Assembly: GCA_029219205.1 (NCBI GenBank)
Contig: JAQXSY010000019.1
Location: 1 to 38,171, forward strand
Direction: 5' to 3'
DNA: 38,171 nt
Source: Bacillota bacterium
GTDB lineage: Bacteria > Bacillota > Clostridia > Oscillospirales > CAG-272
Both the position numbers and the translations under genes were made by a program. The notes under the pieces are model-generated. The model worked only from the letters and a program-made list of their open reading frames with translations, was not told the origin of the DNA and made no database searches. Each line of letters opens with the position of its first letter. The first letter of the stretch is position 1. Shown in pieces: positions 15,135 to 17,928 of this stretch.

Positions 15135-15938
15135 TCAAAATATCGGAACTACCGCTTTATCAAATGTTTCGTTTATGTAGTTGCGGACAGCTTCGCTCTG
15201 AAGTGCTTCGACAAGCGCTTTAATCTTCGGAAGGTTTTCGTTGCCCTCTTTTACAACAAGGATGTTGGCAAAGGTCTGAGCTGCTTCAGAATCTGCGGAT
15301 TCGGCAGCAAGCGCCTCAGAAACTTTGAGTCCGGCGCCTATGGCATAGTTTCCGTTGATGACTGCGATGGCAACTTCATCAAGAACTGTCGGAAGCAAAG
15401 CGGCTTCCATTTCACGGATGTCAAGGTTAAGAGGATTTTCAATGATGTCACTCTTGGCAGCCTTGAGACCGACTCCGTCCTTGAGCTTTATAAGGCCCTG
15501 AGCGGCAAGCAGCTGGAGTGCGCGCGCTTCATTGGAAGGATCGTTGGTTACAGCTACAATAGAGCCTTCTGTGAGGTCGGAAAGGGAAGAAACTGTTCCG
15601 GCATAGATTGCGTAAGGTTCATAGTGAATCTTTGCAACGGAAACGAGGTGAGTATTGTTTGACTCATTAAAGCTGTCAAGGTAAGGCTGATGCTGGAAGT
15701 AGTTTGCGTCAACGTCTCCGCTTTCGGTTGCGTTGTTGGGAGTGACATAGTCTGTCATTTCTCTGATTTCAAGAGTGTATCCCTGTTTTTCAAGCTCTTC
15801 TTTGCAGATTTTCAAAATATCCGCATGAGGAGTAACGCTTGCCGCAACTACAATCTTTTTGTCGTTGTTTCCGGAGCATCCGGCAAAGCAGCAGAATATG
15901 AACAGAAATGCGATGGCGAGTGAAAGAATTTTTTTCAT
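15135..15938 (-). CDS. metQ: Methionine ABC transporter substrate-binding lipoprotein MetQ
   Basis: The protein has 267 residues. A lipoprotein signal ends in FAGC (Cys21), followed by KIVVAASVTPHADILKI, a segment with DYVTPNNATESGDVDANYFQ, and NDPSNEARALQLLAAQGLI. All are hallmarks of the NlpA/MetQ family. It binds L-methionine (or D-methionine or methionine derivatives) outside the cell and passes it to MetI/MetN. It is the last gene of the leftward metN-metI-metQ operon, separated from metI by an AT-rich 41-base gap. A ribosome-binding site, AAAGGAGAAAAAACC, precedes the ATG. Confidence 0.95.
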   Translation of the reverse strand: MKKILSLAIAFLFIFCCFAGCSGNNDKKIVVAASVTPHADILKICKEELEKQGYTLEIREMTDYVTPNNATESGDVDANYFQHQPYLDSFNESNNTHLVSVAKIHYEPYAIYAGTVSSLSDLTEGSIVAVTNDPSNEARALQLLAAQGLIKLKDGVGLKAAKSDIIENPLNLDIREMEAALLPTVLDEVAIAVINGNYAIGAGLKVSEALAAESADSEAAQTFANILVVKEGNENLPKIKALVEALQSEAVRNYINETFDKAVVPIF

Positions 15939-15979: not shown

Positions 15980-16669
15980 TTACTTTTTGCGTATACGCTT
16001 GTCGCAGGCCTTTGCGATGAAGCTCAGCGTTTCCTGCATGATCTGAACAATAATTATAAGAAGCAGGGAAGCCACATACATGATATCCGGCGTAAACCGG
16101 TACAGACCGTATTGTATTGCAAGCTGACCGAGACCGCCGCCTGCTATGAGGCATGTCATCGGTGTGTAACCGAGTATCGTTGTTATCGCGATTGCCGCGC
16201 CGACTATCAGCGAGGGCTTTGCTTCGGGTATAAGTACCTTTGAAATTATTTGCAGGTTGTTAGATCCCATAGACTGCGCCGCTTCAATTACACCGCGGTC
16301 AACTTCTTTTAATGAAGATTCAACCATTCTCGCAACAAACGGAGCCGCGGCGATTACTAAGTGAAAAATAAATGTGTTGTCGCCGATCTTTGTTCCGATT
16401 ATAATCTTTGCAAGCGGCTGAGTCATTACAAGAAGTATCATAAACGGGACGGAACGCAGGATGTTTACGATAAAGCCTGTTATCGTATTAACCGTTTTGT
16501 TTGGGAATATTCCGTCTGACGAAGTACCGTATAAGAGTACTCCCATGGGCAGACCGATTATGTACGCCAAAAGCGTGCTGATTATTGTAATCTTTAGCGT
16601 AATGAATATATTTTCGGCATAGACCGCAAGCATTCCGTTGCCGAAAGCACTGTTAAGAAATTCGCTCAT
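15980..16669 (-). CDS. metI: Methionine ABC transporter permease MetI
   Basis: The protein has 229 residues with five membrane segments, the usual size for MetI. The motif GVIEAAQSMGSNNLQIISKV around 137-156 is the EAA coupling loop, and NILRSVPFMILLV is a family signature in the third helix. It forms the homodimeric channel for methionine import. Its start codon lies 17 bases inside the end of metN, so translation of the two is coupled. Confidence 0.95.
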   Translation of the reverse strand: MSEFLNSAFGNGMLAVYAENIFITLKITIISTLLAYIIGLPMGVLLYGTSSDGIFPNKTVNTITGFIVNILRSVPFMILLVMTQPLAKIIIGTKIGDNTFIFHLVIAAAPFVARMVESSLKEVDRGVIEAAQSMGSNNLQIISKVLIPEAKPSLIVGAAIAITTILGYTPMTCLIAGGGLGQLAIQYGLYRFTPDIMYVASLLLIIIVQIMQETLSFIAKACDKRIRKK

Positions 16670-17660
16670 TGCTGTCTACCTCCTCGAAATGTATATTACG
16701 CGAATCGAGATATTTTTTGATTCTGACGATTGCGTTTTCGTCGTCCGGAAGCTGTAAAAGCATTTGACCGTATGCCTTGCCGCCTATATTTTTTGTGTCG
16801 GCGCCGAGAATATTTACTGCGGTCCGGCATTCAAGCGACAGGTTCGAAATGACCGGTTCAAATGAGGATTGACCGTCAAAAACGATGCGTATAACGGTTT
16901 TTCCGGATACTTCCGTGACGGCGGAGCTTTTCGGAAGGATAAGTTCTTTTGCAATGTCCGACTGCGGGGCAACAAAAATATCTTTAACCAAACCGGTCTC
17001 GGCAACTGAGCCTCCGTCGAGCACCGCGACTTTGTTGCATATCTGTTCAACTACCTTCATTTCGTGAGTGATTACGACAATGGTTACTCCCATTGACTCG
17101 TTAATGCTTTTCAGAAGAGAAAGGATTGACGAAGTGGTGTTTGGATCAAGCGCGCTCGTCGCTTCATCACACAGCAGCACCTCAGGATCGGTTGCCAGCG
17201 CTCGTGCAATCGCCACACGCTGTTTTTGTCCTCCCGAGAGCTGCGCGGGATAATTGAACATTCGGTCCGAAAGTCCTACAATTTCAAGCAGTTTTTTTGC
17301 TTTTTCGAGAGATTCCTTTTTTGAAACTCCCGCAATTTCAAGCGGATAGCAAACGTTTTTAAGTGCGTTACGCTGAGCGAGAAGATTGAAATTCTGAAAT
17401 ATCATCGAGATGGATCTTCTGGTTTGGAGCAGTTCGTTCTTTTTTAGTGAACTGAGATCGACTCCCTTGAAGAGTACTTTGCCGGATGTGGGAATCTCAA
17501 GATAATTCATTATTCTTACAAGTGTGGACTTGCCTGCTCCGGAAAGTCCGATTATGCCGAATATATCTCCCGTTTCGATTTTAAGCGAAACGTCTTTTAC
17601 AGCTTCAACTTCGGCTTTTTCGGTGCGGAATGATTTTGAGACATGCTGTAATTCAATCAA
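16653..17660 (-). CDS. metN: Methionine ABC transporter ATPase MetN with C-terminal NIL domain
   Basis: The protein has about 335 residues from a TTG start at 17660. That start sits eight bases after the ribosome-binding site AAAGGAG and gives the family N-terminus IELQHVSKSF. The longer frame from 17717 lies inside the leader hairpin region and is not needed. Walker A GLSGAGKST (38-46), signature LSGGQKQR, Walker B VLLCDEATSALD and the H-loop ITHEMKVV are intact. The last 90 residues form the NIL domain, which binds methionine and inhibits transport when the cell is replete. It is first in the metNIQ operon, under a long structured leader. Confidence 0.95.
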   Translation of the reverse strand: MIELQHVSKSFRTEKAEVEAVKDVSLKIETGDIFGIIGLSGAGKSTLVRIMNYLEIPTSGKVLFKGVDLSSLKKNELLQTRRSISMIFQNFNLLAQRNALKNVCYPLEIAGVSKKESLEKAKKLLEIVGLSDRMFNYPAQLSGGQKQRVAIARALATDPEVLLCDEATSALDPNTTSSILSLLKSINESMGVTIVVITHEMKVVEQICNKVAVLDGGSVAETGLVKDIFVAPQSDIAKELILPKSSAVTEVSGKTVIRIVFDGQSSFEPVISNLSLECRTAVNILGADTKNIGGKAYGQMLLQLPDDENAIVRIKKYLDSRNIHFEEVDSNERIS

Positions 17661-17696
17661 AATGGTTACTCCTTTCGGACAATCATTGCTGGATAC

Positions 17697-17732
17697 AAAA
17701 ACAGTCCGGGAAAACATAAGGTATCCCGGACA
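17697..17732 (-). terminator. Leader terminator (attenuator) just upstream of metN
   Basis: Read leftward, TCCGGGA (part of 17724-17732) pairs with TCCCGGA (part of 17703-17711) around a 12-base loop; one outer G-C pair extends the stem to 8 bp. It is followed by TGTTTTTG (five T at 17697-17701). This intrinsic terminator lies 36 bases before the metN start codon, within its own transcript, so it must be conditional. Confidence 0.8.
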
Positions 17733-17893
17733 ACTATTTATACAAGCTTAGGCTATGCTTTAAAAAGAAGCGGAGGCAAAGCCAAAAAACCCGTACATAC
17801 GTGTCCGGGCAGAAAACATTCGACCGCAACGGAAATTACTTCTGAGAAGATTTTCAAAAAAGAATCTCACCGGACTGCCTCCCTTAAAACATT
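17703..17893 (-). promoter_or_regulatory. Structured metNIQ leader with mutually exclusive pairings
   Basis: Four complementary segments occur in transcript order: S1 GTCCGG (17870-17875), S2 CCCGGACA (17802-17809), S3 TGTCCGGGA (17724-17732) and S4 TCCCGGACT (17703-17711). S1 with S2 gives 6 bp, S2 with S3 a perfect 8 bp, and S3 with S4 the terminator stem. S1 also fits S4. An outer helix pairs GGAGGCA (17876-17882) with TGCCTCC (17772-17778). The design is that of a transcription attenuator: if S1 holds S2, the terminator S3-S4 forms; if S2 is free it can pair with S3 and prevent it. I searched by eye for the S-box (SAM-I) core and the T-box AGGGTGG sequence and found neither. Confidence 0.7.
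17760..17870 (-). CDS. Candidate 36-residue leader peptide upstream of metN
   Basis: This short ORF starts with GTG at 17870, seven bases after the strong ribosome-binding site GGGAGG, and stops with TAA at 17760-17762. It encodes 36 residues beginning MRFFFENLL and ending YGFFGFASASF. It has nine Phe, six Arg, one Cys and two internal Met (18 and 25). It starts about 23 bases from the predicted transcription start. It overlaps leader segments S1 and S2, and its last codons pair with its own ribosome-binding site. That placement is what a translated attenuator needs: ribosome position would decide which hairpins form. It matches no leader peptide I can name. It may equally be an accidental frame inside a riboswitch; comparative data are needed to decide. 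Confidence 0.5.
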   Translation of the reverse strand: MRFFFENLLRSNFRCGRMFSARTRMYGFFGFASASF

Positions 17894-17899
17894 TTTTAA

Positions 17900-17928
17900 A
17901 GTATATCACTATAATCCCGTTTTGTCAA
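17900..17928 (-). promoter_or_regulatory. Consensus promoter of the metNIQ operon
   Basis: Read leftward: TTGACA (17923-17928), exactly 17 bases, TATACT (17900-17905). The predicted RNA begins near 17893, which gives metN a leader of about 230 bases. With so strong a promoter, control probably happens in the leader. Confidence 0.85.

Follow-up and report, generated by a model that had tools for sequence, protein, structure and literature searches.

A conserved family of putative leader peptides upstream of methionine and cysteine genes in Clostridia

How the metNIQ operon of this Bacillota bacterium is controlled, and whether a small open reading frame (ORF) in its leader takes part, is the question raised by this locus. 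The window, i.e. the whole 38,171-nt stretch of DNA analyzed, carries on its minus strand metN (methionine ABC transporter ATPase, 16653-17660, TTG start at 17660; TIGR02314, E 1.4e-100, 336.7 bits, under the curated cut-off of 499.7), metI (methionine ABC permease, 15980-16669; NF008049, E 1.1e-54) and metQ (methionine-binding lipoprotein, 15135-15938; NF008285, E 2e-52). The original prediction had described, ahead of metN, a consensus promoter, a GGGAGG ribosome-binding site and a 36-codon ORF with a GTG start, ending about 100 bases before the gene. Inspection of the sequence recovered all of these features on the minus strand. The promoter is of the sigma-70 type (17900-17928, 11 of 12 consensus matches), with TTGACA at 17928-17923, a 17-nt spacer, TATACT at 17905-17900 and a TG extension ahead of the -10 box; transcription probably starts near 17893. 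The Shine-Dalgarno GGGAGG (17878-17883) precedes the ORF (17760-17870; VRFFFENLLRSNFRCGRMFSARTRMYGFFGFASASF, then TAA), which is supported by the ORF call and by homologues. About 99 nt separate the end of the ORF from the start of metN, which has its own Shine-Dalgarno, AAGGAG, at 17675-17670.

An intrinsic terminator lies between the ORF and metN, at 17731-17696; the predicted element, 17760-17928, covered promoter and ORF and left this terminator outside. It is a perfect hairpin of GTCCGGGA and TCCCGGAC with a 12-nt loop, followed by TGTTTTTG. We number the pairing segments of the leader 1 to 4. Region 1, CCCGGACA, lies inside the ORF, 10 nt past the A of ATG18 (17802-17809), and has two possible partners: region 2, a local CGGG (17790-17793) which is weak in the window, or region 3, GTCCGGGA (17724-17731), the 5' arm of the terminator. 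Region 4, TCCCGGAC (17711-17704), is the terminator's 3' arm, and the U-tract TGTTTTTG its tail (together 17696-17711). The complementarity of 17809-17802 to the terminator 5' arm bears out the earlier suggestion that the ORF overlaps a strand of a conditional terminator. The fold of the window leader RNA is 3.7 standard deviations below shuffled controls (z = -3.7), and homologous ORFs stand in the same relation to a terminator upstream of metN in other genera; the arrangement is thus more than chance. The complementarity of TGCCTCC to GGAGGCA, also part of the prediction, exists in the window and is absent from the nearest metN homologue (L002), and we leave it out of the proposed mechanism. 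The minimum free energy fold of the window also involves a GTCCGG at the start codon of the leader (17875-17870); this too is missing from L002 and was dropped as a general feature.

Genomes were searched in six frames with the window peptide, then with a profile of its first 18-19 residues, on samples of the family, order, class and phylum. The six-frame search found homologous small ORFs before metN in two other genera, and before metY (O-acetylhomoserine sulfhydrylase) in several. Profile matches occurred in 88 of 394 genomes of the order and 36 of 391 of the class; among 299 genomes of the phylum there was no match except in the window's own genome. By these sequence matches, the leader has many homologues in Clostridia. 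The window's own genome also carries a second copy, of the Shine-Dalgarno-masking type described below, before metY (L030 1501-1572, G000:C75).

The 157 ORFs gathered by peptide similarity served for codon counts. They share the motif M1-x8-R10-x-N-F-R-x-G-R17-M18, with near-invariant amino acids at positions 10, 12, 13, 14, 16, 17 and 18, and the window ORF is a member: its conserved part, codons 1-18 (17817-17870), ends in N12 F13 R14 x G16 R17 M18. By sequence, the window ORF belongs to a conserved, previously unnamed family of 18-codon leaders of methionine and cysteine genes in Clostridia. For R10, N12, F13, R14, G16 and R17 it is the residue that is conserved, with synonymous change and at a fixed distance from the presumed pause site. 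Each of the six Arg codons occurs at R10 (AGA 67, CGC 27, CGG 24, AGG 16, CGT 13, CGA 6) and at R14, and every Gly codon at G16. R17 is CGA in 156 of the 157 leaders, and codon 18 is ATG in 153; in metY genes, 2% of all Arg codons are CGA. This nearly invariant CGA17-ATG18 pair (17817-17822 in the window) is the putative site of the ribosome pause. Series of several tandem regulatory codons, which are typical of classical attenuators and not required, do not characterise the 157 leaders: the sensor codons are usually a single Met, often with one Cys next (codon 19 is Cys in 71, TGA in 42 and Trp in 5). Past codon 18 the tail varies in length and sequence. The Phe/Arg-rich tail and second Met are not conserved; it is codons 1-18, ending NFRxGRM, that are. 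In one leader (L307) the core is duplicated, NFRCGRMCCSCSNSNFRCGRMCCSCS.

Since the 157 ORFs were chosen by peptide similarity, their intact reading frames alone are not evidence of coding. An independent DNA pattern, restricted to codons 12-18 plus TG (a 23-nt core), was scanned against 84,980 species genomes and gave at least 121 matches. Among the matches listed, an ATG, GTG or TTG stands exactly at codon 1, 17 codons ahead of M18, in 103 of 121; ATG peaks at the codon 1 nucleotide with 96 occurrences, the runner-up position having 8. An in-frame stop within codons 1-11 was seen, among these listed matches, in L290 only, which has no recognised sulfur gene behind it and is taken as an expected chance match. 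The translated search for synonymously biased change, a check proposed with the original prediction, was strongly successful, and the view that the ORF is a leader peptide is supported. Across the family the conserved short ORF has a start codon and a Shine-Dalgarno and lies ahead of the operon presumed to be regulated. Records with titles shown, among the core-scan matches listed, are nearly all Clostridia. One leader copy (L271 671-693) is in a record titled as a Treponema metagenome-assembled genome, before a uroporphyrinogen-decarboxylase-like gene, and reflects either transfer or a misbinned contig.

The total set holds 256 distinct candidate leaders, a lower bound for Clostridia. All 245 candidates with an assigned gene precede methionine, cysteine or sulfur-related genes; 6 candidates with too little downstream DNA and 5 without gene assignment, two of which (L062 and L290) are chance matches, were left out of the tally. 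Based on short sequence motifs, the downstream gene is metY in 196 candidates, metQ/NlpA in 26, metN or another ABC ATPase in 12, a TcyP-like symporter, an SsuA/NMT1-like binding protein or an ABC-permease-like protein in 3 each, and a sulfate-binding protein or a uroD-like protein in 1 each. The leader is not confined to metN, the gene of the original prediction; it is found chiefly before metY, and the same peptide is used there with a different RNA platform. NCBIfam confirmed the sulfate-binding protein and gave no match for the ABC-permease-like, SsuA-like and uroD-like proteins; the TcyP-like label is a family resemblance, since the dicarboxylate symporter DctA was matched in NCBIfam only weakly. 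The ABC-permease-like membrane protein, uncharacterised and found behind L012, L122, L088 and L329, is possibly a sulfur-compound transporter.

Residue 18 is Met in 251 of the 256 candidates. The four leaders of cystine/sulfate transporters, and no others, have Cys there, a correspondence that comprises four loci only: L067, L169, L210 and L261, with GRC or GRCM before TcyP-like symporters and the sulfate-binding protein. One metQ leader (L185) has Thr, GRT. A scan of 335 genomes for the GRC pattern gave 2 matches, neither of them usable, one being at a contig end and one without a leader. Upstream of many metY leader ORFs, near the promoter, we also observed CCTAC..GTAGG-like inverted repeats (L011, L024, L036, L038, L056 and others), possibly an Rrf2/CymR-type operator; a loose pattern finds them at 79 of 256 leaders, a figure that carries no background estimate.

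In the metY platform the ORF ends soon past Met18, and codons 11-19 are complementary to the surroundings of the metY Shine-Dalgarno: AUUUCC..UUUCG pairs with CGAAAGGAAAU, and GAAUGUG with CACAUU. Over 161 loci the duplex between a leader and its own spacer has a mean energy of -16.6 kcal/mol, against -13.9 for swapped partners. The difference persists in a nonredundant set of 137 loci with swaps made within GC bins (-16.5 vs -14.3 kcal/mol, z = -10.4), and a control segment upstream of the ORF shows no own-versus-swapped effect. Matching changes are found in L066 (GAAUGCGUA with UACGCAUUC) and in L024 (UUUCAGAUUC with GAAUCUGAAA). Modelled accessibility of the metY Shine-Dalgarno is 0.30 in free RNA and rises to 0.50 when a ribosome occupies codons 17-18. 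In these models the leader codons mask the Shine-Dalgarno as in translation attenuation of the ermC type. Of the 44 ORFs that stop directly after Met18, 42 do so with TGA, a preference partly explained by the AUGUG/CACAU pairing.

The terminator platform is found before metN and some metY genes. About 17 leaders have a TCCCGGAC-like region 1, located 6-10 nt past the A of ATG18 and within +6 to +18, that can pair with the 5' arm of the terminator; the complementarity is often longer than the stem (13 nt in L002), and most have a region 2 as local partner. Paired changes between region 1 and the terminator 5' arm occur in L161, L226 and L086. Equilibrium folding of 15 of these leaders gave, for free RNA, a mean terminator probability of 0.40 and antiterminator probability of 0.59; a ribosome placed anywhere from codon 18 to about codon 27 raised the terminator to about 0.9, and one further along left it at roughly 0.3-0.5. 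With ATG18 in the P site the mean terminator is 0.86-0.91 and the antiterminator 0.01-0.07 (downstream edges of 14 and 12 nt), and with CGA17 in the P site the mean antiterminator is 0.44-0.54 (downstream edges of 12 and 10 nt), so that the modelled outcome is decided by a one-codon step, is sensitive to the assumed footprint and lies within model error. In the models of both platforms, ribosome position would select between mutually exclusive RNA folds. Met or Cys codons of the tail were considered as the stall site of the terminator platform and rejected: their positions differ between loci, and the window has none at the right offset.

We consider it likely that the element is a peptide-coding attenuator in which pausing at codons 17-18 reads the supply of methionine or cysteine. 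We infer that a ribosome translates the 18-codon leader, and that the nascent chain, R10..NFRxGR, together with CGA17 causes it to pause at codons 17-18. The residue after CGA17 is Met, or Cys in the leaders of cystine/sulfate transporters, and the paused ribosome would set the fold of the downstream RNA. At metN, the leading edge of the ribosome would decide whether region 1 is used: in the on state region 1 would pair with the terminator 5' arm, giving antitermination and transcription of metNIQ, and in the off state region 1 would be masked and the intrinsic terminator would form. At metY, including the second copy in the window's own genome, a hairpin containing leader codons would mask the Shine-Dalgarno and the paused ribosome would open it, switching the gene on. 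The likely signal is Met or Cys supply, most simply the charged tRNA at codon 18 (or Cys19), reported by the duration of the pause or its exact register. Among the examined tRNAs of the window's own genome, tRNA-Arg with anticodons ACG, CCG and TCT are present and tRNA-Arg(TCG) was not found; CGA17 is therefore expected to be read by an inosine-A wobble pair, as established decoding rules have it.

Genes switched on by starvation fit the metY platform directly. Starvation would also turn metN on if the starved ribosome holds CGA17 in its P site and keeps region 1 free to pair, this region being masked once Met18 has been added. In the folding models, a ribosome that has reached ATG18 with its P site promotes the terminator yet opens the metY Shine-Dalgarno, so the two platforms agree in sign only with a wait at CGA17. 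A more specific reading, tentative and in our view somewhat short of an even chance, is that in a Clostridia-wide leader family one Met or Cys codon senses sulfur amino acids: the R..NFRxGR peptide and CGA, an obligatory I-A wobble codon, in the P site would hold the ribosome until the next charged tRNA arrives, one sensor would serve two unrelated RNA platforms, and a swap at residue 18 would change specificity.

As metN may take either of two signs, we retain ligand-induced arrest as the main rival, although we consider it unlikely. Here an abundance of Met, SAM or Cys would cause NFRxGRM to stall the ribosome while Met18 occupies the P site; the stalled ribosome would cover region 1 and let the terminator form, i.e. 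feedback repression of the TnaC/SpeFL type with inverted output. A conserved peptide of fixed length is indeed typical of arrest peptides rather than of classical attenuators, and a ribosome modelled at codon 18 does give the terminator in that platform. The same ribosome, however, opens the metY Shine-Dalgarno, so that abundance would activate a biosynthetic gene, and residue 18 tracks the amino acid of the gene, which fits decoding of codon 18 better. We regard as very improbable that the ORF encodes a small trans-acting protein whose place before sulfur genes is mere operon organisation: conservation of the first 18 residues speaks for it, but the tail varies without constraint on length or sequence, TGA directly follows Met18 in 42 of 157 copies, and the coding sequence itself makes the RNA pairings. 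Hardly credible is control of the terminator by a riboswitch or RNA-binding protein with an incidental ORF, since despite strong alternative RNA folds neither the window nor 20 related loci matched any Rfam family at gathering score, and the peptide is conserved with free synonymous change, a fixed start position and no stops.

According to the original prediction, no leader peptide with this sequence is known to be described, and the peptide is indeed absent from Rfam and from protein family libraries. At a relaxed E-value Rfam gave only unrelated sub-threshold matches to the leader, and NCBIfam gave none to the peptide; a Pfam SEHBP match (17.8 bits, cut-off 27) was taken as chance. Our literature search found no NFRxGRM and no description of a metY or metN leader peptide; preprints and most subscription papers lay outside it, and a description may exist elsewhere. 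Attenuation by the leader peptide, if true, would explain the control of methionine and cysteine genes in many uncultured gut and rumen Clostridia, and would add a widespread and directly testable family for Firmicutes, where almost no leader-peptide attenuators were known in 2010 (PMC2965389). Because CGA is preferred almost absolutely over the five other Arg codons, the family would allow a clean test of P-site I-A wobble as a regulatory device in bacteria, and with the Met/Cys swap at codon 18 a single codon change suffices to test specificity.

Several known systems resemble this family in part. Like the classical trp, his and leu attenuators, it has a short upstream ORF with a codon of the regulated amino acid and a mutually exclusive terminator and antiterminator downstream; unlike them, it usually has one Met (or Cys) codon and not a series of them, a preceding peptide conserved at fixed length with a nearly invariant CGA before the sensor codon, and region 1 directly after that codon. 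The metY hairpin recalls ermC-type leaders, since it includes leader codons, masks the Shine-Dalgarno and would be opened by a paused ribosome; here, however, no antibiotic is involved, the genes serve amino-acid biosynthesis and uptake, and the peptide occurs with a transcription terminator as well. The arrest peptides TnaC, SpeFL and those of the RAPP type (PMC10987492) similarly have conserved residues at fixed spacing before a presumed pause site, but we noticed no common sequence, stalling is inferred here, and the pause-site residue tracks the regulated amino acid. In other Firmicutes, S-box (SAM) riboswitches and T-boxes also control methionine genes including transporters; none was detected in the loci examined, which have no Rfam match, and the proposed sensor is a translated codon instead of an aptamer or a tRNA-binding RNA. 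The actinobacterial cysteine leader ORFs (PMC1262725), together with the mycobacterial polycysteine ORFs (Canestrari et al. 2020, cited in PMC13236596), are also small ORFs with sulfur amino-acid codons before sulfur genes; they differ in that Cys codons follow one another in runs and conserved hairpins are lacking, and the NFRxGRM core is not known to be described for them. Each of the classical attenuators, the ermC-type leaders, the arrest peptides and the actinobacterial cysteine leaders thus has part of the features of this family, and none has the whole set.
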